Source: Olsenella sp. An293 (GTDB taxonomy: Bacteria > Actinomycetota > Coriobacteriia > Coriobacteriales > Atopobiaceae). Taken from it: a DNA stretch of 64,000 nucleotides. Positions 20,065 through 63,850 of this stretch are shown one piece after another; position 1 is the first letter of the stretch, and each line of letters starts with the position of its first letter. The DNA lies in NCBI RefSeq assembly GCF_002159495.1, contig NZ_NFIT01000005.1, positions 1 through 64,000 on the forward strand, in the 5' to 3' direction. Position numbers and translations under genes: made by a program. A model generated the notes under the pieces. The model searched no databases and was not told the DNA's origin. It saw only the letters and a program-made list of their open reading frames with translations.

Positions 20065-21087
20065 TCAACCCCTGACGTGCAGCTTCACCGCGCCGTGCGA
20101 CACGGGCACGCCAAAGAGGGCCCGCTCGAGCCCAACGCCGCACCGCGTGGCCTTGAGCAGCCGCTGATGCAGCTCGGCGACCTGCTCCGCCGGGGCCGGG
20201 CCTCCCGGCTGGCGGGGGATCTCGTCCTCGAAGAGCGCCACGGCCCTCATGAGCTCCGCGTGGTCTGACATCTGGTCTAGCTTGATGGTGTTTATCGTCC
20301 AGCCCATGTGCTCGAGCGCCTCCTTGCGGCGCAGGTCCTTCTCGGGATCGAGGTGAAACTCGAGGCTGTCATACTCCGCCCCGCGCCGCACGGCCGGCCA
20401 GGCGATGTCGATCGAGCAGCTCCTCGTGCCCGTCACCGCCGCCGCGGCGTCGTCGAGCGGAACCACGTAGTTGAGCTCCGGCCGCACGAAGGCGAGCCCC
20501 CGGTGGCGCCCGGGCAAAAAGAGCTCTCCCGTCAGCACCGTCTCCATCGGGGAGCGCGCGGCGTCGCACACCCAGCGCAGCGCCTCGCGCGCCCGGCTGA
20601 GCCCGTAGAGCCCCGAGAGCGCGTCCACGACCTCACCGATCTTCTCGACGGACGTGAGCGGCGGACGCTCGTAGTAACCTGAGACCATCTCGGAGAAGTG
20701 GGAGTAGCGCCCGCACAGCTCACAGCCAAGGACGACGGCACCCACCAGAGAGAAGCCCCGCGCCATCTGCACGAAGCAAAGCTCCGGACCGGCCGCATAG
20801 ACGTCCGGCGCGAGCTCCAGCAGCAGCCCCTCCGGCATGACCGGCAGTCCAAAGTTATGCGTTTCGAAGGCCTCGGACTGGATGGCGCGCACTCCCTTGG
20901 CGGCAAGAACGTGGACCGGAACGCGACGAATGCCAAACTCACTCAGGTCGAGACGACGAAGCTCCCGGGAGTCTGTCGAGATGAGTCCCATGTCCAGAGC
21001 CTCGCTTACGCGAGGATAGGCCCTCACCTGCGGCGGAACGGCACGCAAGAGCTCCAGGGCGGAGTTGTGAGAGATGACTACCGGCAT
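20065..21087 (-). CDS. hypothetical protein with DUF559/PD-(D/E)XK-like C-terminus
   Basis: A 340-residue soluble protein. The start at 21087 has GAAGGGGG before the ATG. The C-terminal third has YDSLEFHLDPEKDLRRKEAL followed by EHMGWTINTI, reminiscent of DUF559/Vsr-like nuclease folds (E, D, then a helix with R-R-x-x-L). The N-terminal part (VISHNSALELLRA) may be a DNA-binding region such as in AbiEi-like antitoxin proteins of actinobacteria. The link is from memory of family patterns and is tentative. It stands alone next to an unusual inverted repeat. Confidence 0.45.
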   Translation of the reverse strand: MPVVISHNSALELLRAVPPQVRAYPRVSEALDMGLISTDSRELRRLDLSEFGIRRVPVHVLAAKGVRAIQSEAFETHNFGLPVMPEGLLLELAPDVYAAGPELCFVQMARGFSLVGAVVLGCELCGRYSHFSEMVSGYYERPPLTSVEKIGEVVDALSGLYGLSRAREALRWVCDAARSPMETVLTGELFLPGRHRGLAFVRPELNYVVPLDDAAAAVTGTRSCSIDIAWPAVRRGAEYDSLEFHLDPEKDLRRKEALEHMGWTINTIKLDQMSDHAELMRAVALFEDEIPRQPGGPAPAEQVAELHQRLLKATRCGVGLERALFGVPVSHGAVKLHVRG

Positions 21088-21190
21088 ACGACCCCCTTCG
21101 CTCGCAAGCGATGGGGGTCGCCGTGCCAGACACTCTACCACAGCCCGATCATGAGACATTGAGTCGACCTTAGGCCAAAGACGGAAAGAA

Positions 21191-21280
21191 TTACCTACTT
21201 CAAAACCAGTAGGTAACGGGCCCATAATCGGAGAAGAACCCCTTTTGAATGCAGTTACCTACTGGTTTTGAAGTAGGCAA
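21191..21280. repeat. paired 27-bp inverted repeats with internal dyads
   Basis: Two 27-nt segments (21191-21217 and 21254-21280) are reverse complements of each other with one mismatch, separated by 36 nt. Each is itself a dyad, TTACCTAC and GTAGGTAA around a 10-nt AT-rich centre, so the element carries four related half-sites. It lies between the DUF559-like gene start and the P-ATPase stop (21088-21386); the rest of that gap shows nothing else I can name. It may be an operator or a small mobile/REP-type unit. Confidence 0.7.
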
Positions 21281-27088: not shown

Positions 27089-28438
27089 CTACCGCTCGCA
27101 GCGCCAGTAGTACGCCGAGTAGGGCTTGAGCTCGGAGCCGCCGCCGAAGTCGTGCTCCTCGCCGGTGATGAGGTCGACCGCGCGGCCGCATTGGGCGTCG
27201 AAGTGCACCGTCGCCGGCTCGCCGCTCGCGTTGATCGCCACGATCACGCGCTCGTAGGTCCCGTGCTCGCCGCCTGCGTAGGTACGCTGGAACACCAGCT
27301 GCTGGGGCTGGCACTGGAGCTGCGCGTAGTCGCCCCAGACAAGGGCCGTCGAGTCCTCGCGGGCGCGCGCGATCGCCGCGACCCAGTCAGTGAGCGCGCC
27401 CCACTCGGGCGCGTCGAGCGCCGGTCGCAGCTCGTGGTCGCCGGGAAGCTGCTCGCCCTCGATCCCCCACTCGGAGCCGTAGTAGACGGCCGGCACGCCG
27501 CTCATCGCAAAGAGCAGGCCGTAGAGCGGGACCAGCTGGTTCTTGTCGGTGAGCTTGGTGGCGATGCGCGGCACGTCGTGGTTGTCCACGAAGTCGAGCA
27601 TGTGGCGGCCGGTGTAGAGGTCCCACGGCTGGCTGCCGCTCTGGCGCTCCAGCGCGTAGGCGATCTCGTGCATGTTGGCGGCGTTCATCGACGACCAGAG
27701 GCCCTTGTAGGCCTCGTAGTTGGTGACCGAGTCGCAGAGGTCGTCGCCCATCCACTGGTTGTAGTCGCCGAACATGGTCTCGCCCACCAGCGGGAACTTC
27801 TCGCCGCGCTCGCTGCCGATCTGGTTGGCGAGGTTGCGCAGGAAGCGCAGGAACCCCTGGTCAAGGCAGTAGGCCACGTCCAGGCGCAGGCCGTCGATGT
27901 CAAACTCGCGCACCCAGCCGCGGATGACGTCCGCCAGGTAGTCGTTGAGCTCGCCGTTCCAGTGGTTGAGCTTCACGAGGTTCTGGGCACCCTCCCAGCA
28001 GCTGTAGGAGAGACCGTCGTTGAAGCAGTTGTTGCCGTTGAAGTCGATCTCGAACCAGCCGGCATAGGGGCTCTCGCCGCGGCGGGCGAGCACGTCCTGG
28101 AACGCCCAGAAGCCGCGCCCCACGTGGTTGAACACGCCGTCCAGCAGAACCTTGATGCCGGCATCGTGACAGGCGTCCACCACGCGGCGCAGGTCCTCGC
28201 CCGTGCCCAGGCGGCAGTCGACCTTGGTGTAGTCGCGCGTGTCATAGCCGTGCGCATCGGACTCGAAGACGGGGTTGAGCAGCAGGCACGTGACGCCGAG
28301 CCGGGCCATGTGGTCGATCCAGCCGTTGTCAATAAGCTGCAGGATGCGGTGCTCGAGAACGCCGTCGTTCTCATGCGGGGCGCCGGTGAGGCCCAGCGGA
28401 TACACCTGATAGACAAAGGACGGCTCGTACCAACTCAT
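27089..28438 (-). CDS. GH13 alpha-amylase family enzyme
   Basis: A 449-residue cytoplasmic glycoside hydrolase. The four GH13 regions are visible: LDGVFNHVG, GLRLDVAYC with the nucleophile aspartate, LVGETMFG with the acid/base glutamate, and FVDNHD. A C-terminal beta domain follows. There is no signal peptide and no N-terminal CBM34, so it is shorter than most cyclomaltodextrinases/neopullulanases; it probably trims imported maltodextrins (inference). GAGAGGAG precedes the ATG. Confidence 0.85.
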   Translation of the reverse strand: MSWYEPSFVYQVYPLGLTGAPHENDGVLEHRILQLIDNGWIDHMARLGVTCLLLNPVFESDAHGYDTRDYTKVDCRLGTGEDLRRVVDACHDAGIKVLLDGVFNHVGRGFWAFQDVLARRGESPYAGWFEIDFNGNNCFNDGLSYSCWEGAQNLVKLNHWNGELNDYLADVIRGWVREFDIDGLRLDVAYCLDQGFLRFLRNLANQIGSERGEKFPLVGETMFGDYNQWMGDDLCDSVTNYEAYKGLWSSMNAANMHEIAYALERQSGSQPWDLYTGRHMLDFVDNHDVPRIATKLTDKNQLVPLYGLLFAMSGVPAVYYGSEWGIEGEQLPGDHELRPALDAPEWGALTDWVAAIARAREDSTALVWGDYAQLQCQPQQLVFQRTYAGGEHGTYERVIVAINASGEPATVHFDAQCGRAVDLITGEEHDFGGGSELKPYSAYYWRCER

Positions 28439-28534
28439 GCGGGAGCTCCTCTCAAAGACAGCGGACCTCCAACATTCTAGCCGCCTCCCGCTCGCCTATT
28501 TTTGCGGTGGGTCAGCGGCAGACGGCCGCGTGGC

Positions 28535-28675
28535 AGGGTATGTACACCGCCTCTTGAGGGTATGTACACCCGCCGGTTTTGGGTTGGTTGCAAACGCGCA
28601 GGTAGATAAGCTGGCGAGAAGAACGGGTGGCTCGGAGGGGTGTACATACCCTCAGGCGGGGGTGCACACACCCTC
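28535..28675. repeat. 141-bp intergenic repeat, copy A
   Basis: The left end has two direct copies of GGGTATGTACACC (28536-28548 and 28558-28570); the right end has inverted copies GGTGTACATACCC and a decayed GGTGCACACACCC. The core reads in reverse orientation relative to copies B (59467) and C (63710) and shares TTCTTCTCG and ATCTACCTG blocks with B. It occupies most of the 322-nt gap between nagA and the GH13 gene; the flanks hold nothing else I can name. Confidence 0.85.
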
Positions 28676-28760
28676 GCGCTGCGGCCGCGAAGGACGCGCG
28701 GCAGGAAAAGGGCGGCCCCAGCGGGACCGCCCTCGGGAAAGGGGACGCCGGAAGCGAGCG

Positions 28761-29921
28761 TCAGCGCTCGTAGACGGTGCGGCCGCCCACGATCGTGCGG
28801 ACCACGTCGTAGGCATCGTCCATGAGCACGAGGTCGGCGCGGGCGCCCACGGCGATACGGCCGCGGTCGGCCCAGCCGAAGAGGCGCGCCGGGTTCTCGG
28901 AGAGCGGCTTGGCGGCCAGCTCCACCGGGGCGCCCGTGAACTTCATGAAGTTGCGCAGCGCGGTGGCCTGCGTGAGCGTGGAGCCGGCACGAACCCCCGT
29001 GGTGGCGAGCTTGGCGTCGCCGTCCTCGACCACCACGTCGTTGACGCCGAGCTTGTAGTTGCCGTCGGGCAGGCCAGCGGCCATGATCGAGTCCGTGATG
29101 CCCAAGATCTTGTCCCAGCCCTTGACTTTGACGTAGAGGCGCACCGTGCCCGGGACGAGGTGACGGCCGTCGCAGATCGTCTCCGCGTAGAGGTCGCTCT
29201 CGAGCGCCACGCCAAAGATCGCGGGCTCGTGCTGGTGGAAGAGGCGCATCGCGTTGCCCACGTGCGTGGCGGACTTGGCGCCCGCGTTCACGCACGCCCA
29301 GGAGAGGTCGTAGCCAGCGCCGCTGTGGCCGATGGCGGAGGTGATGCCCAGGGCCTCGAGCTGCGGGATGAGCTCGGGCACGCCGGGGACCTCAGGCGCG
29401 AGCGTGGTATAGAGGATGTGCCCGCCCGCGGCCTCCTGGTACCGGCGGAAGAGGTCGACGGACGCCTCGTGCATGAGCAGGTGCTCGGGCATGGCGCCCT
29501 TGTACTCGCTCGAGAGGCACGGCCCCTCCAGGTGGATGCCGAGAAGCGCGGCGCCGTCGTAGGGGCCGCCCTCGATGACCTGGCGCGCCTGCTCGATGCA
29601 CCAGAGCGTCTGCTCCGGCGTGTCCGTGAGGATGGAGCAGAGCCAGCCCGTGGTGCCCTGGGAGGCGAAGAAGCGACCGATGGTGCGCAGGCCCTCGACA
29701 TCGGCGGCGTTCACGTCGAAGCCGGCGGCGCCGTGGGTGTGCACGTCGATGAAGCCGGGCAGGGCGAGAAGCCCGCTCGCGTCGATGACCGGCAGGCCCT
29801 TCTCGTTGTCATAGGCCGAGGAGAGGCCCGTGACGACGCCGTCCTCGACGGTGACGTTCAGGCGCGCGAGCTCGCCCTTGGACAGGACGCGCGCACCCGT
29901 GATGTAGCAGCTGGAAAGCAT
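28761..29921 (-). CDS. nagA: N-acetylglucosamine-6-phosphate deacetylase
   Basis: A 386-residue amidohydrolase that removes acetate from GlcNAc-6-phosphate. Metal and catalytic residues are in FIDVHTHGAAGFD, IHLEGPCLS, IGHSGAGYD, THVGNAM and GITDS. The start at 29921 has GGGAGG eight bases before the ATG; upstream in-frame sequence is the antisense-like shadow of the next gene. It follows the nagB-like gene by 11 nt and forms an operon with it. Confidence 0.9.
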   Translation of the reverse strand: MLSSCYITGARVLSKGELARLNVTVEDGVVTGLSSAYDNEKGLPVIDASGLLALPGFIDVHTHGAAGFDVNAADVEGLRTIGRFFASQGTTGWLCSILTDTPEQTLWCIEQARQVIEGGPYDGAALLGIHLEGPCLSSEYKGAMPEHLLMHEASVDLFRRYQEAAGGHILYTTLAPEVPGVPELIPQLEALGITSAIGHSGAGYDLSWACVNAGAKSATHVGNAMRLFHQHEPAIFGVALESDLYAETICDGRHLVPGTVRLYVKVKGWDKILGITDSIMAAGLPDGNYKLGVNDVVVEDGDAKLATTGVRAGSTLTQATALRNFMKFTGAPVELAAKPLSENPARLFGWADRGRIAVGARADLVLMDDAYDVVRTIVGGRTVYER

Positions 29922-29932
29922 GGGGCGCCTCC

Positions 29933-30748
29933 CTAGTAGGCCTGCTGGCGGGCGACGTCGTTGACGTAGATCTTGGCGTCGGGATGGCTCTGGAGCAGCG
30001 TCGCCGGGAAGGCGGCGGTGGGCTCGCCGTAGGCCGCGCGGCGCACGACGCCGCGGTGCCAGTCGCGGAAGACGCCGAGGCGCACCTTGCGGGCGCCCAG
30101 GATCTCGCGCATGCCGATGGTCACGCAGCGGTGCGGCATGTCCTCGAGGGCGCCGCCGAGGTCGCCCACGCAGTTGGTGGCACGGGTCTCGGGGTGGATG
30201 TCGAGGGTGCGGGTCTCGAGCGCGGCAAACTCCTCGCAGGTGAGCTCGGGCTGCGGCTCGTTGAAGGCGAGGTGCCCCGTGATGCCGATGCCGCCGAAGG
30301 CGATGTCCACGCCGCCGAGCTCGTCGATCACGCGACCGATGTGGCCAAGATCGTGCGGGTCGGGGAAGACGCGCTGCTCCTCGGGCATCACGAGCTCGGG
30401 GTCGATCTTGTCGTAGACGGTTTTGGCCATGAAGCCGCGGAAGGAGAGCGGGTCGTCGGCGCTGATCCACTCGTCGTTGTCGTCCAGATACTCGTCCATG
30501 TTGATGAACCAGCAGTCCTTGAGGGAGATGCGCTGGTCGTTGACCATCTTCACGAAGTAGGGATAGTGGCCGACGGGGCCCACCGGGCAGATGAACACGG
30601 TCTTCTCGCCACGGGCGTTGTGCTCGCGGATGGTGCTCACCATCTCAAGGGCGAGGTCGAAGAAGACCTCGGCGGAGTCACCGGCGCAGACGAGCGGCAC
30701 GCGGGCGCCCTGGCCCAGGTCCTCGGCCGAGATGTGATAGTACTCCAT
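29933..30748 (-). CDS. nagB: glucosamine-6-phosphate deaminase-like protein
   Basis: A 271-residue NagB-family protein expected to convert glucosamine-6-phosphate to fructose-6-phosphate and ammonia. FINMDEYLDD keeps the ring-opening aspartate region. In the second active-site loop E. coli NagB has G-x-G-x-D-G-H-x-A-F-N-E-P; this protein reads GGIGITGHLAFNEP, with threonine in place of the catalytic Asp141, while the His and Glu are kept. The substrate or mechanism may therefore differ. ACAAGGAG precedes the ATG. Confidence 0.75.
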   Translation of the reverse strand: MEYYHISAEDLGQGARVPLVCAGDSAEVFFDLALEMVSTIREHNARGEKTVFICPVGPVGHYPYFVKMVNDQRISLKDCWFINMDEYLDDNDEWISADDPLSFRGFMAKTVYDKIDPELVMPEEQRVFPDPHDLGHIGRVIDELGGVDIAFGGIGITGHLAFNEPQPELTCEEFAALETRTLDIHPETRATNCVGDLGGALEDMPHRCVTIGMREILGARKVRLGVFRDWHRGVVRRAAYGEPTAAFPATLLQSHPDAKIYVNDVARQQAY

Positions 30749-41304: not shown

Positions 41305-41364
41305 TTGACAATCACGTCAGGTTATATTGTCAAGTTGTCAATCGCGTCAGGTTATATTGTCAAG
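41305..41364. repeat. two 30-bp tandem hairpin repeats
   Basis: Units 41305-41334 and 41335-41364 are identical at 28 of 30 positions. Each is bounded by TTGACAAT or TTGTCAAT and ATTGTCAA, so each can form a hairpin. They lie about 75 nt past the Pgi-like stop. Confidence 0.8.
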
Positions 41365-41383
41365 CTTGGCCGTCCCTCTGCCG

Positions 41384-41485
41384 TGCTGATTGGGGACGGG
41401 TTATTTCGTGCAGACCGTTTGGGACAGGTTTCCCATGAACCCTGTCCCAAACGGTCTGCACGAAATAACCCGTCCCCAATCAGCA
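41384..41485. repeat. perfect 45-bp inverted repeat
   Basis: The arms 41384-41428 and 41441-41485 are exact reverse complements, separated by only 12 nt. The arm begins TGCTGATTGGGGACGGG and ends TTTGGGACAGG. In RNA it is a 45-bp hairpin able to stop both convergent genes; as DNA it can extrude a cruciform. A nearby GGGACTGTCCCC is a related fragment. It looks like a REP/MITE-type insertion. Confidence 0.85.
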
Positions 41486-41499
41486 GGGACTGTCCCCAA

Positions 41500-47714: not shown

Positions 47715-48503
47715 CTACGCCAGCGCGAACTTCCAGATGTTGTACGCGTTGATGAGGATGATCAGCACCATGAGACCCATGAAGAGCTTGTCCACGGTCT
47801 TGTCGTCGATCTTGGCGTTGACCTTGCGGCCCACGATGCCGCCCAGGATGCCGCAGACCACCATCGCGGCGAGCAGCAGCAGGTCCACGCCCACGTAGCC
47901 CCCGGTGACGATGGAGCTCGCAGTGCTCGTGGCCTGCGAGAACAAGATGATGTAGAGCGAACTCGAGGCCGCACGCTTGGTGGCCATGGTGAAGAAGTAG
48001 AAGAGCACCACGAGGTTGATCGGGCCGCCGCCGATGCCGAGGAACGACGAGCACACGCCCAGCGCAAAGCCGATAGCCAGGCACGCCGCGGCGGACGTAA
48101 CGTTAAGGGTGGGGATCTTCTCCTTGTAGATGGTATAGACGAGCGTCCCCAGCGTGATGAGCAGGAGGAGCCCCGCCTGGACCGCGCCGGCGGTGTTGGG
48201 GTCGGGGAAGAGCCCTGCCACGATGGAGAAGAGCTCCTTGCCGGCAAGGCCGCCCACCGCGGCGCCGATCGCAAGCGGGGTGTCGGTCTTGGGGTCGATC
48301 GTGGAGGTGCCCGAGAGCTTGGCCTTGAGGACGGAGTAGAGCGTCATCGAGAGGACCGTGCAGCCCGAGAGGAAGTTGATCGTGGCCACGTCCGCCACGC
48401 CCGTGGCGTCGAGCACCGGCTTGATGATGATGCCGCCGCCGATGCCGCAGATGGCGCCCACCGTGCAGGCAAAGAAGCTGACGAGAAGAACGAGCACTTG
48501 CAT
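47715..48503 (-). CDS. TauE/SafE family sulfite/organosulfonate exporter-like permease
   Basis: A 262-residue membrane protein with about eight hydrophobic segments and two family repeats, CTVGAICGIGGGIIIKPVL and GVCSSFLGIGGGPINLVVL. The family moves sulfite, sulfoacetate or related anions. The start at 48503 has GAAAGG before it. It is monocistronic, with a strong terminator of the upstream operon just before it. Confidence 0.85.
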   Translation of the reverse strand: MQVLVLLVSFFACTVGAICGIGGGIIIKPVLDATGVADVATINFLSGCTVLSMTLYSVLKAKLSGTSTIDPKTDTPLAIGAAVGGLAGKELFSIVAGLFPDPNTAGAVQAGLLLLITLGTLVYTIYKEKIPTLNVTSAAACLAIGFALGVCSSFLGIGGGPINLVVLFYFFTMATKRAASSSLYIILFSQATSTASSIVTGGYVGVDLLLLAAMVVCGILGGIVGRKVNAKIDDKTVDKLFMGLMVLIILINAYNIWKFALA

Positions 48504-54747: not shown

Positions 54748-55624
54748 CGTCGTCATCTCCCTCCACGCCAGCAGAGACAGCCGCGACGGCGCCGGTCTGG
54801 TGCTGCTGGTAGTAGATGTAGGCAAGAGCGAAGCCGATGAGAGCAACGGTCAGCATCGACAGACCCTTGAAGCTGCCACCGGTGATGGCGGTCTCGGTAG
54901 CACCAGCGACCGTGGCGACGTCGCCGCCGATGGTCTGGATGCTCGAGAAGGCGGTGCCGAGGAGGGCAGCGATCACGAAGCCGAGGATGAGGTAGGCAAC
55001 GTGCTTCTTGACGGGCAGGTAACGGAGCAGGATGGCGAAGCCGACGGCCGGCAGCATGCCACCGGCGACGGTGAGGCCGGTGCCGAGCCAGGCGAGGTCG
55101 CCGTTGAGGGCGCCGGTGATGGCGTCAACCAGACCCTGGCCGAAGGCGAGGGCGAGGAAGACCGGGATCATACGGGAGAGGCACCAGGAGACAGCGCCCA
55201 TCCAGTAGTGAACGTTGTAGGCGCCCCAGTTCATCTTCTCGACGTCAGCGTCGCAGGCGTGACCCCAGAAGGTGTTGGCCATACGACCGAGAATGTCGGT
55301 GTAGACGAGGATCGCGGCCACGGGCACGCCGAGGGCGGCGAGGGCCTGCTCCGGGTCCATGCCGGAGCTCACGGCGAAGGCCGTGGCGATCAGGGTGCCG
55401 GAGTTGGCGTCGATGCGGGAAGCGCCGCCGAAAGTGCCAACACCGAGGATGGTGAGCTGCATGCTACCACCGATGAAAAGACCAGTTGCCATGTCGCCCA
55501 TCACGAGGCCCGTGAAGAAGCCAGAGAACACGGCGGAGCCGGCGCTGGAGTACCAGTGCAGCTCGTCCATGATCTGGAAGCCCGCGTAGAGCGTGAGCAG
55601 AAGAATCTGCCACCACTGAATCAT
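54737..55624 (-). CDS. PTS system IIC component, mannose/sorbose/galactosamine family
   Basis: A 295-residue integral membrane protein with about eight to ten hydrophobic segments. GLVMGDMATGLFIGGSMQLTIL is the hallmark of the mannose-family IIC. The tail is acidic (EGDDDDEL), and its codons double as the IID ribosome site. AAGGAGG precedes the ATG. Confidence 0.9.
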   Translation of the reverse strand: MIQWWQILLLTLYAGFQIMDELHWYSSAGSAVFSGFFTGLVMGDMATGLFIGGSMQLTILGVGTFGGASRIDANSGTLIATAFAVSSGMDPEQALAALGVPVAAILVYTDILGRMANTFWGHACDADVEKMNWGAYNVHYWMGAVSWCLSRMIPVFLALAFGQGLVDAITGALNGDLAWLGTGLTVAGGMLPAVGFAILLRYLPVKKHVAYLILGFVIAALLGTAFSSIQTIGGDVATVAGATETAITGGSFKGLSMLTVALIGFALAYIYYQQHQTGAVAAVSAGVEGDDDDEL

Positions 55625-58336: not shown

Positions 58337-58398
58337 GATGGGACAGACGCCTCCGGGGTATCTGTCAGATGGGACAGACACCTCCGGGATATCTGTCA
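58337..58398 (+). repeat. two 31-bp tandem hairpin repeats in the pfkB leader
   Basis: Units 58337-58367 and 58368-58398 differ at only two positions. Each has GACAGA and TCTGTC arms around a CCTCCGGG-containing loop. They end 24 nt before the pfkB start, so they are probably transcribed in its leader and could form two identical hairpins. Confidence 0.8.
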
Positions 58399-58422
58399 CA
58401 TACCGCTGGCAAAGGAGCCGCC

Positions 58423-59358
58423 ATGATCTCCACCGTCACGCTCAACACCTCCATCGACAAGGCCTACCAGCTTGCCTGCCCGCTCGTGGACGGCACGGTG
58501 ATGCGCGTGCAGACCTGCATCGACAACGCCGGCGGCAAAGGGCTGAACGCCGCCCGCGCGGTCGCGACCTGCGGCGAGAAGATCGTGGCCACGGGATTTG
58601 TGGGCGGCAACAACGGCCGGCTTCTCTGCGAGCTTCTGGACGCCGACGGCATCGAGCACGACTTCGTGCACGTGGCGGCCGAGACGCGCTGCTGCGTGAA
58701 CGTGCTCGAGCCAAACGGCCGCTCGACGGAGTTCCTGGAGCCCGGCCGCGCCGTGAGCGCGGACGAGGTGTCTGCCGTGCGCACGAAGGTCGCCGAGGTG
58801 GCGGCACGCGCCGACGTGGTGACCTTCAACGGCTCCGTGCCGGCAGGCTGCAGCGACGACATCTACCGCGAGCTGGTGGAGGTCGTGCGCGCGGCGGGCA
58901 AGCCGGCGATCCTGGACACCTCGGGCAAGCTGCTCGTGGGCAGCCTGGCCGCCCGTCCCGCGATGATCAAGCCCAACACCGACGAGATCCAGGCGATCCT
59001 GGGCCGCAAGCCGGAGTCCATCGACGAGATCTACGCCGCGGCGCGCGAGGTGCACGAGACCTACGGCATCGAGAAGGTCGTGGTGTCGCTGGGCGGCAAC
59101 GGATCGGTCATGGCCTGCTCCGAGGGCGTCTTCCGCGGGCGCGCGCCGCGGATCGAGGTGGTCAACCCCGTGGGCTCGGGCGACACGATGGTCGGCGCCT
59201 TCGCCGTCGCCATGGAGCGCGGCATGGCAGTTAAGGACCAGCTCGCGTTTGCGATGGCCTGCGCGAGCGCCAACTGCCTCACGCCCTCGACCGGCCACTT
59301 CGACATGGCCGTGGCCGACGAGCTGCGCACCGGCACGAGCGTCGAGAAGGTCGCGTAG
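58423..59358 (+). CDS. PfkB family 1-phosphofructokinase/tagatose-6-phosphate kinase
   Basis: A 311-residue ribokinase-type sugar kinase. NAGGKGLNAARAVATCG at the N-terminus and NPVGSGDTMVGAFAVAM with the catalytic aspartate near the C-terminus are the two family signatures of the FruK/LacC branch. Being divergent from an AgaS-encoding operon, tagatose-6-phosphate is a likely substrate, but fructose-1-phosphate cannot be excluded. AAAGGAG precedes the ATG. No tagatose-bisphosphate aldolase is adjacent. Confidence 0.85.
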   Translation: MISTVTLNTSIDKAYQLACPLVDGTVMRVQTCIDNAGGKGLNAARAVATCGEKIVATGFVGGNNGRLLCELLDADGIEHDFVHVAAETRCCVNVLEPNGRSTEFLEPGRAVSADEVSAVRTKVAEVAARADVVTFNGSVPAGCSDDIYRELVEVVRAAGKPAILDTSGKLLVGSLAARPAMIKPNTDEIQAILGRKPESIDEIYAAAREVHETYGIEKVVVSLGGNGSVMACSEGVFRGRAPRIEVVNPVGSGDTMVGAFAVAMERGMAVKDQLAFAMACASANCLTPSTGHFDMAVADELRTGTSVEKVA

Positions 59359-59466: not shown

Positions 59467-59607
59467 AGGGTATGTACACCGCCTCTTGAGGGTATGTACA
59501 CCTTTCCGGAATGCTCGTTCTTCTCGACAGCTCATCTACCTGGGGAAACGCTGATAGTCCGAACTCGGACGATGTACATACCCGGTATGCGCGGCGTACA
59601 TACCCTC
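59467..59607. repeat. 141-bp intergenic repeat, copy B
   Basis: Same size and ends as copies A (28535) and C (63710): two direct GGGTATGTACACC at the left, two inverted GTACATACCC at the right. The core has TTCTTCTCGACAGCT and ATCTACCTG. It lies between the convergent pfkB and histidine kinase genes. Confidence 0.85.
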
Positions 59608-59641: not shown

Positions 59642-60511
59642 CTACGGGGCCGGACGCAGTTCAAGGCGGGCCGAGAAGGACGGGCGCTCGCCGGCCGTGA
59701 CGTCCACCGTGAGCGACCCGCCCATCGACACCGCGAGCGCGCGGGCGACCGCGAGACCAAGGCCGGTGCCGCCGGAGTTGCGCGCGGGGTCTCCTTGGTA
59801 GAAGCGCTCCGTGAGGCGCGCGGGGTCGAGCCGGGCGGCGTCGGCGGGCGCAACGGGGTTCTCGACCGTGAGCGTCGTGCCCTCGACGCGCACGCACGGC
59901 GCGCCCGAGCCGTGGACGAGGGCGTTCTCCAGCAGGTTGGCGATCACACGCGCGAGGCCGTCGGGCGCAGCGAGCACGGGCGCGGTCTCGCCGAGCCGCA
60001 CGTCGGGCTCCCAGCCGCGCACCGCGAAGACCCCATAGCGGGCGGCGAGCGCATCCGCCGCGGCATCAGCGAGGTCGCAGGCGACAAGCTCCGGCTCCCA
60101 AGACGGGTCCGCGGCGCGGGCGTAGGTGAAGAGGTCGTCCACGAGCACGCGCATGGCAGCGAGGCGCTTCTCGGCACCCTCGAGGTAGCGGGCGGCGCGC
60201 TCCGGGTCCGTCGCGCGCTGGGCGAGCTGCAGGTAGCCCTGGGCCCCGGCGAGCGGGGTGCGGATGTCGTGGGAGAGCGCGGCGAGCTGCTCGCGGAAGC
60301 GCTCATCGGCGCGGCGGCGCTCGAGGTCGCGCTCGAGGTCTGCGTCCAGGTGGCAGTCGACCGCGCGGGCGAGCTCGGCGACGGCAGGGTCGGCGGACTC
60401 CAGACGCGCACGGAGCGCGGGAGCCACGGCGGCGCGGTCCAGCAGCTCCGCCAGCCGCGCGAGGTCGCGGTCGCGGGCCCGGCGTGACGAAAAGGGGCTG
60501 TCCCTCTTCAT
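59642..60511 (-). CDS. soluble sensor histidine kinase
   Basis: About 289 residues. The H-box ALSHDIRTPLAGAQGYLQLA, the N-box ANLLENALVHG and the G-box GGTGLGLAVARALA are intact. There is no membrane segment: the first 90 residues are a charged, Arg/Ala-rich helical region. It may therefore sense through the adjacent ABC transporter, as in small-peptide resistance systems (inference). The ATG overlaps the permease stop as TGATG. Confidence 0.85.
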   Translation of the reverse strand: MKRDSPFSSRRARDRDLARLAELLDRAAVAPALRARLESADPAVAELARAVDCHLDADLERDLERRRADERFREQLAALSHDIRTPLAGAQGYLQLAQRATDPERAARYLEGAEKRLAAMRVLVDDLFTYARAADPSWEPELVACDLADAAADALAARYGVFAVRGWEPDVRLGETAPVLAAPDGLARVIANLLENALVHGSGAPCVRVEGTTLTVENPVAPADAARLDPARLTERFYQGDPARNSGGTGLGLAVARALAVSMGGSLTVDVTAGERPSFSARLELRPAP

Positions 60512-61284
60512 CACAGGCTCACACGGGACATGAGCCTGTGGGAGATGACCCAGAACGCCGCGATGCAGACGACGCACGTCACGACAGGACCCAGGTCAAG
60601 CGTCGCGTTCATGCTGAGCAGCGCCGCCGGCTGAAGCGGCATCAGCAGCTGGGCCAGGTCGTAGGCGAGCTCCTGGGAAAACGGAATCGCCACCGCCATG
60701 GGCACGAGAAGCGCCAAGTTGAGCAGGCCACCTGCGAGCATGATCGAGATGAGCAGCGTCGTCCCAAAGCCGCGCGAGCGCCGGGAGAGCCACAGGAGCA
60801 GCAGGCCAAAGGCGGCGTACGTCCATCCCACGAGCATGCTGGCGAGCACGCGCAACACAAGCTCGCCCAGCGGCATCCCCTCGAGCTGTGCGCCGGGCGC
60901 GAGCAGCAGGATGAGCCCCAGCAGAACCGTCCAAGCCGTGAGCACCATCGAAAGCATGAGCGCAAGAATCATCCGCGTAGCCACGTAGTCGGCCCTTCCT
61001 CGCTCTGTGGCAATCGAGGCCCGCAGCCCGTCCGACGACAGGTCATGAACCGTGATGCCGGTCACAGCGAAGCACGTGCCAAAGATGGCTCCCGTATTGA
61101 CAAGCGAGAGGAGCGACGACTCAAACGATATGACCAGATGCATGTCGGCATTCTGCGGGGTGAGCAAGGTCGTGAGGAGAGTCGCAAGGGCCCGCAGTGC
61201 CGGCAGCACAAAGGCCCCCTTCACGTAGGCGTCGCGCGAGGCGAGGTAGAGCGCGGCGCGAAGCTGGTTTCTCAGGTTGGTCAT
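60511..61284 (-). CDS. ABC-2 type permease
   Basis: About 257 residues with six hydrophobic segments, of the ABC-2/lantibiotic-immunity-like type (for example MILALMLSMVLTAWTVLLGLILLL). It pairs with the ATPase encoded just upstream. A GTG at 61293 overlapping the ATPase stop is an alternative start. The cargo is unknown. Confidence 0.75.
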   Translation of the reverse strand: MTNLRNQLRAALYLASRDAYVKGAFVLPALRALATLLTTLLTPQNADMHLVISFESSLLSLVNTGAIFGTCFAVTGITVHDLSSDGLRASIATERGRADYVATRMILALMLSMVLTAWTVLLGLILLLAPGAQLEGMPLGELVLRVLASMLVGWTYAAFGLLLLWLSRRSRGFGTTLLISIMLAGGLLNLALLVPMAVAIPFSQELAYDLAQLLMPLQPAALLSMNATLDLGPVVTCVVCIAAFWVISHRLMSRVSL

Positions 61285-63709: not shown

Positions 63710-63850
63710 AGGGTATGTACACCGCCCGCTCAGGGTATGTACACTTTCCGGCCCACCAGCACTTCTCGCCCGCGTCTCTGACCTGCGGCTTTGCGAGAAG
63801 AACCTCAAAGTCGACTGTACATACCCGATATGCGCACTGTACATACCCTC
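63710..63850. repeat. 141-bp intergenic repeat, copy C
   Basis: Same architecture as copies A and B: direct GGGTATGTACAC pair on the left, inverted GTACATACCC pair on the right, core with TTCTCGCC and GCGAGAAGAACC. It lies between the HAD gene's stop and the response regulator start. Confidence 0.85.

Follow-up and report, generated by a model that had tools for sequence, protein, structure and literature searches.

Dispersed iteron-bearing elements bracket the gene of a predicted two-domain nuclease-like protein in Olsenella-like Atopobiaceae

A gene for a two-domain nuclease-like protein lies between copies of a dispersed intergenic element of about 140 bp, in which paired direct 12-mers, taken from their sequence as the putative protein sites and here called iterons, surround a conserved core. 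A partnership between this gene and the elements is very likely, and the explanation that we favour, with fair but clearly lesser confidence, is that the elements serve the protein as DNA sites throughout the genome and bracket its own gene. By analogy, we read it as a REPtron-like partnership on an unrelated nuclease. The candidate partner gene (G000:C1:252766-253746) encodes about 320 amino acids in about 330 codons and received no Pfam or NCBIfam call. G000 is the genome of origin, an Olsenella-like member of the Atopobiaceae with 2.31 Mb in 35 contigs.

Three copies of the element, A, B and C, are located in the window, i.e. the whole stretch of 64,000 nucleotides that was analysed. An earlier note on this DNA had described them as repeats of identical length with four inward-facing sites each, which is confirmed: the sequence from AGGGTATGTACAC to CCCTC comprises 141 nt in every copy, and the window contains 12 GGGTATGTACAC sites, all of them within the three copies. 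With up to two mismatches allowed, 1.08 such sites are expected, and none of 100 shuffles reached 12. Seven sites are exact, and the five with one or two mismatches are all found on the right-hand side. The extracted cores also bear out the claim that copy A carries its core in the opposite direction to copies B and C. The placement just downstream of a gene is true for all three copies but is an incomplete description, as copy B lies between the convergent ORFs 58369-59358 (plus strand) and 59642-60577 (minus strand), and copies A and C are each downstream of one ORF and upstream of another. The parts of the three copies are the following.

28535 to 28675, minus strand: copy A, whole element, class 1, core in minus orientation
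28536 to 28569, plus strand: left iteron pair of copy A, GGGTATGTACAC at 28536 and 28558, 22 bp apart, both exact
28570 to 28639, minus strand: core of copy A
28640 to 28673, minus strand: right iteron pair of copy A, inverted; 28640 exact, 28662 with two mismatches
59467 to 59607, plus strand: copy B, whole element, class 1
59468 to 59501, plus strand: left iteron pair of copy B, both exact
59502 to 59571, plus strand: core of copy B, CGTTCTTCTCGACA...CTACCTGGGG, plus orientation
59572 to 59605, minus strand: right iteron pair of copy B, one mismatch each, spacer of the TGCGCATACC type
63710 to 63850, plus strand: copy C, whole element, class 1
63711 to 63744, plus strand: left iteron pair of copy C, both exact
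63745 to 63814, plus strand: core of copy C, with the inner inverted repeat ACTTCTCGC / GCGAGAAGAAC
63815 to 63848, minus strand: right iteron pair of copy C, one mismatch each

A plus-strand ORF that overlaps copy A (28437-29936) is the choice of a crude gene caller and was taken as spurious. A further sequence at 48466-48496 is core-like but was rejected, since it lies at the start of an ORF.

The 12-mer GGGTATGTACAC occurs 171 times in the whole of G000 at up to two mismatches, vs 40 times for a reversed control pattern, and at least 37 elements could be extracted from 28 stretches and the window. They follow the layout A-GGGTATGTACAC-N10-GGGTATGTACAC, with the paired 12-mers 22 bp apart and then the inverted pair, whose first site in each window copy stands 82 from the second site on the left. 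This inner spacing is 82 in 23 of the 37 copies and 81 in 14, the core is in plus orientation in 21 and in minus orientation in 16, and some elements lack the outer sites. Their length is near-constant, not strictly constant; the 26 four-site copies measure 138-140 on a scale on which the window copies measure 140. The conserved core is asymmetric and occurs in either orientation. It can be written as GTTCTTCTCGGCA..CTGACCTGCGG..TTTGC or as GTTCTTCTCGGCA..C..TGACCTGCGG..TTTGC, and the invariant columns of the G000 elements are in the inner 12-mers and in the core. The earlier note had named, as a refutation, copies across the genome that lack a conserved core or length; this was checked, and the outcome did not refute the family. 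The octamer GCGAGAAG, which is half of the core motif, is present 31 times in the whole window vs 5.1 expected from shuffles, an excess that may be due in part to codon usage, and in sister species it was noticed close to the ends of genes.

Beyond G000, the sequence profile R1 finds matches in 31 of 31 searched genomes of the genus (G000 and 26 others in one search, four in another) and in none of nine genomes outside it, with 2 to 83 hits per genus genome, part of them counted on both strands. The core is alike throughout the genus, as judged from the best profile match of each genome with an extracted locus; in G028 and G030 this match contains the core but no clear iterons. The 12-mers, in turn, form classes that depend on the species (GGGTATGTACAC, GGGTACGTACAC, GGTTATGTACAC, GGTTATGCGCAC, GGGTGTGTACGA, GCATCGTGTACAC and others), and some genomes hold two of these classes. 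The second class consists of CGTTGTGTACAC repeats in 19-bp steps with the same core and is present in G000, G006, G016 and G018. In G029 (L043, about 1455-1640) and G001 (L272, about 2440-2900), about eight iterons form an array to one side of a core. A search of named species genomes for the exact inner-pair pattern located it in 33 stretches, which belong without exception to uncultured Atopobiaceae and to Olsenella sp. An290 and An285. The pattern had no match in viral contigs; a looser core pattern gave three matches in viruses, apparently chance coding DNA. An origin from phages or plasmids was considered and dropped, as the old-type element L224 had no match in either. A gene-cassette (attC-like) reading was also discarded, because the genes examined between neighbouring copies are partly ordinary ones such as amtB-glnK. 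HicB-family and Fic-like genes were seen between neighbouring elements as well (L004 6304-6624, L153 1869-3158).

The candidate partner gene was found among elements in G000 and three sister genomes, where the adjoining gene was read by eye as hisS, and a protein search showed that the best homologue in other species likewise adjoins elements. Of 21 intact close homologues, 19 were examined (L263-L279, L323 and L324; G025:C2:307700 and G004:C17:69629 are outside this set), and all 19 have elements on both sides, the left elements of L272 and L274 being judged by eye. The bracketing elements are within about 420 bp in 18 of them; at L265, the left element is about 0.7 kb away, beyond a hicB-like gene. 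Two homologues that are not intact, one cut by a contig end (L281) and one holding a stop (L280), have one element each. The 19 loci are not all independent, and by their neighbouring genes they represent at least seven neighbourhoods, with G004 outside the grouping.

hisS/ABC transporter: G000, G006, G016, G018
glycosyl hydrolase family 2: G011, G022
M20 peptidase/thiamin pyrophosphokinase: G019, G021, G028, and G029 by eye
DHQ synthase/EPSP synthase: G001, G003, G025, and G005 and G027 as seen from the DHQ side
pantothenate kinase/TetR: G002, the genome of Olsenella sp. An290, with its homologue at L273
B12-binding protein and oxidoreductase: G020
DUF4013 protein and glycine transporter: G014

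The 12-mers that bracket the gene at the M20/thiamin locus differ: G019 has GCATCGTGTACAC, G021 and G029 have GGGTACGTACAC and G028 has CGTTGTGTACAC, and within each genome both sides carry the identical type. Two of these genes were examined after the idea had been formed, namely that of G029, which lies between elements mapped earlier at C53:53966-54071 and 55415-55521, and that of G028, which is bracketed by the class-2 12-mer. No partner of class 2 had been found among the genes in 15 class-2 loci, and the G028 gene later provided a candidate; its flank repeats have 21-bp steps vs 19 for class 2 elsewhere. The flank 12-mers match dispersed copies in the own clade, G011, G021 and G029, and nearly do so in G014 and G020. 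In G002, G003, G005, G025 and G027 the 12-mer at the gene differs from that of the best copy found with the class-1 profile, and at L277 the 12-mers differ between the two sides; this incomplete agreement speaks against the partnership. A repeat that both borders the gene and is dispersed in the genome is thus seen in the own clade, in G011, G021 and G029, and, for a more distant family member, at L318 in G039; for the other species, what was seen is the bordering.

Gene and elements do not always occur together. All 31 genus genomes have profile matches and ten of them lack a close homologue, a point against the partnership, and the hisS locus has a single element without the gene in G009 and neither of them in G008. 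G009 possesses 25-40 class-1 elements and no close homologue, and its iterons are more degenerate, with 2.04 vs 0.85-1.31 mismatches per inner pair; among 13 paired loci it is worse at eight, equal at three and better at two, a weak point in favour of the partnership. Genomes with the gene have a median of 19 profile hits vs 7.5 in those without it (p 0.02), which carries little weight because the profile favours class 1 and the species are related.

A wider protein family was analysed by aligning the two flanks of each of 61 family genes, 420 bp on either side, with each other, and the threshold was the 99th percentile of a control in which flanks of different loci were paired. A flank repeat above this threshold was obtained for 31 of the 61 family genes vs none of 61 ordinary genes from the same stretches, many of them from the window (Fisher 5e-12, which is overstated because the family genes are related), and no flank repeat was found for the other 30 family genes. 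The positives include loci in other genera (L303, L306, L312, L316, L318) and, within the own genus, a second group of paralogues that has a separate hairpin (L283, L287, L291, L295, L302). The repeat at L318 recurs at about 22 places in G039, which belongs to another family of the order, and that at L283 at about six places in G000, two of which span just 21 bp. In a later search of nine loci, six exceeded the threshold, including L325 and L328 as well as L330, whose match is apparently coding DNA; L326, L329 and L331 had no flank repeat. Core 7-mers are found in 36 of 87 flanks beside family genes vs 29 of 128 in the genus; the counts outside it, 7 of 36 vs 0 of 4, are uninformative. Genomes of the genus have 7-19 family matches each, and the window itself holds a distant paralogue, which is not the candidate partner of copies A-C.

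20065 to 21087, minus strand: distant paralogue of the partner family, start set by eye within ORF 20065-21225
21191 to 21280, no strand assigned: a different inverted repeat, 27-bp arms and a 36-bp centre with GGAGAAGAAC

This inverted repeat is situated just upstream of the distant paralogue and occurs at three places in its genome.

The protein was studied with an alignment of 60 homologues and a structural model (pLDDT 94.2). Residues 182-297 of the model match the catalytic domain of I-Bth0305I (3r3p_A) with Z 9.4 and an rmsd of 2.5 over 95 of 97 residues, followed by a Neisseria endonuclease-like protein (Z 7.8) and Vsr (1vsr, Z 6.9). Foldseek gave a probability of 0.97 for the nuclease domain at E 0.11, which alone is not significant, and the Pfam hint to REase MTES_1575 is below the cut-off. 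S182, E185, D230, E241 and H248 are invariant in the 60 sequences, and E185, D230, E241 and H248 are candidate catalytic residues. The modelled C-terminal domain accordingly shows a Vsr/EDxHD homing-endonuclease-like fold. For the N-terminal half, which was modelled alone (pLDDT 92.6), the top structural matches are AbiEi (Z 7.0 over 118 residues) and Rv2827c (Z 4.9) (6y8q, 1zel). The N-terminal domain may resemble the AbiEi antitoxin; the AbiEi value is within the background range, and such Z values are not decisive.

How the elements change was followed in five sister genomes, whose 166 elements yield 124 orthologous pairs with both flanks homologous at 45 loci; the elements thus keep orthologous intergenic places across sister species. 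The same core in the same orientation is found in 86 pairs and a clean inversion in 11; in 22 pairs the cores are less than 65% identical in either orientation, where unrelated cores within one genome have a median identity of about 60%, and five pairs are ambiguous. Counted by locus, the core was inverted in place at 6 of 45 and replaced at 12 of 45, in both cases with intact flanks. Where the exchange points of the inversions could be placed, they are within the inner 12-mers, and passive recombination between inverted repeats could bring such inversions about. The core of copy A, for example, is 99% identical to its orthologue in G016 and 51% to that in G006, at a locus that as a whole is about 93% identical to both, and the locus of copy C has the element also in G009, G016 and G018 and other sequence in G002, G008 and G012. 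Cores at non-homologous loci of one genome reach 96% identity, and therefore cores spread or are converted. At few loci, the same place is occupied by elements of different iteron classes in different species. In related species without the element, the same intergenic place may hold a different hairpin-like repeat (L249, L258, L256, L236, L243), as though several families of repeats settled in common at the ends of genes.

We infer a possible mechanism of cutting and repair copying from three observations, namely the fold, the replaced cores and the cores that different loci have in common. The protein probably binds the iterons, as the conservation of their sequence suggests, and dimers or higher oligomers would assemble on the two inverted iteron arms. 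The nuclease domain would then cut in or near the core, and repair of the break from another copy would homogenise the class, exchange or invert cores and keep the population alive, a maintenance like that of REPs with their RAYT. Cleavage with break-repair copying is a more tentative proposal than binding. More speculative still is a wider scheme for the Coriobacteriia, a novel partnership, selfish or domesticated, in which several paralogous AbiEi-like/Vsr-like fusions per genome would each keep their own population of iterons and cores through core cutting and repair, a "homing without an intron"; protein specificity and iterons would change together, and the core would be the constant cleavage site.

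Two alternatives, both unlikely, deserve closer attention. The first is an ordinary MITE family that arose by internal deletion from a DDE transposon with two or more 19-22-bp transposase sites at its ends, as in Tn7, IS21 or Tn402-like elements; the nuclease gene would be a frequent neighbour or cargo. The multi-repeat inverted ends, the 19-22-bp steps and the TGAGGG...CCCTCA edges do resemble such transposon ends, and the near-identity of cores between unrelated loci demonstrates spread or conversion of the copies. However, a conserved core with ends that vary between species is the reverse of a MITE, and the gene that is bracketed encodes a Vsr-like nuclease and no DDE enzyme. No target-site duplication was seen in the 37 copies of the own genome, the comparison with related genomes that the earlier note had proposed yielded only diverged empty sites and no clean one, and no longer element with these ends was present among the matches listed, which come from draft genomes. 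The same note had suggested a MITE/REP-like element, and this holds in so far as the elements are dispersed, intergenic and palindromic-ended and bracket a gene, which is REP-like behaviour; on the features compared, they fit neither named family, as there is no Y1 transposase or GTAG hairpin as in REPs, and no target-site duplication or parent transposon as for MITEs was seen among the copies and matches listed.

The second alternative, which we consider about equally improbable, regards the elements as sites with which the host organises or repairs its chromosome, and the nuclease gene as a parasite for which they are safe homes. The 45 loci common to sister species and the conserved sequence of the iterons would fit this view, but congeners differ widely in their profile hits (2 to 83), and at one shared locus the bracketing iterons depend on the species, with both sides in step.

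A structured RNA or a transcript-end hairpin formed by the inverted arms, a possibility also named in the earlier note, is very unlikely. The arms are inverted repeats and frequently near gene ends, and the spacers agree within copies more than in shuffled data (identity 0.606 vs 0.541 +/- 0.015 overall, clearest in G016 with 0.628 vs 0.536), which leaves some room for pairing. This excess is, however, absent from G018 and G009, and shared spacer types or conversion could yield it. The iterons hardly covary, with a left-right agreement within 109 copies of 0.924 vs 0.920 +/- 0.002 in shuffled ones and the 12-mer itself nearly fixed among copies; core orientation is not maintained, as cores flip in place, and Rfam at gathering scores finds only a tRNA in the window. 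A phase-variable switch, in which a recombinase flips the core between the arms and so toggles neighbouring genes, can draw on the clean inversions with intact flanks at 6 of 45 loci and is nevertheless hardly credible. A working switch should give nearly equal numbers, but 11 flips stand against 86 same-orientation pairs; orientation is thus mostly inherited, which speaks against a fast switch, and outright core replacement occurs as well.

The nearest working analogue is the REPtron. REPs and RAYTs are the case known to us of a gene that lives with dispersed short bacterial repeats. In a REPtron (PMC8266576), a TnpAREP/RAYT gene is flanked by palindromes of a kind found dispersed through the genome, and as here these repeats are intergenic, often form inverse pairs and have co-evolved with the protein. 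The system described here differs in its protein, which is a fusion with a nuclease of Vsr/EDxHD fold instead of a Y1 HUH transposase, and in its DNA unit, in which paired direct 12-mers that, judged on sequence, form no hairpin by themselves surround a conserved asymmetric core in about 140 bp, whereas the REPtron unit is a 20-50-nt hairpin with GTAG or a similar tetranucleotide in front of it. Because its proteins and DNA units are unrelated to those of the REPtron, we did not file it there and call it new in kind, though working like something known. No prior account of the family was found in open-licence PubMed Central text with few word choices.

Like EDxHD/Vsr-like homing endonucleases, the protein combines a nuclease fold, predicted for residues 182-297, with a further domain, which here is a different one. 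We know of no such homing endonuclease that maintains dozens of dispersed target elements bracketing its gene. I-Bth0305I itself dimerises on a target of nearly 60 bp (PMC3943268). The AbiEi antitoxin of type IV toxin-antitoxin systems is the top structural match of the N-terminal half, at the background-range Z given above, and differs in that the present half forms a fusion with a nuclease. Size, intergenic dispersal and inverted ends are similar in bacterial MITEs such as RUP, Correia and ERIC (reviewed in PMC10969869); the elements are likewise short and dispersed with terminal inverted repeats, but their core is better conserved across species than their ends.

If the partnership is true, it would be a second one between a gene and dispersed short repeats, on an unrelated nuclease fold and with iterons that vary among related species at a shared locus, and it would open the question of which features such populations share. 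It would also offer a testable role for an uncharacterised protein family and provide a naturally matched set of protein-DNA specificities.

A RAYT as the partner of the elements was considered and rejected, as RAYTs are present also where elements are few and were not beside exact 12-mers among the matches listed. RAYT-like Y1 genes were found in 22 of 30 genomes searched and in 18 of 19 of the genus, with up to six per genome, and those of the own genome (C5:16597 and C34:111178) were likewise not near exact 12-mers among the matches listed. The window also contains a tandem 30-bp repeat, TTGACAATCACGTCAGGTTATATTGTCAAG, at 41305-41364, and behind it, at 41381-41488, an almost perfect inverted repeat of 52 bp that includes GGGGACGGGTTATTTCG and looks like a repeat of the RAYT type.
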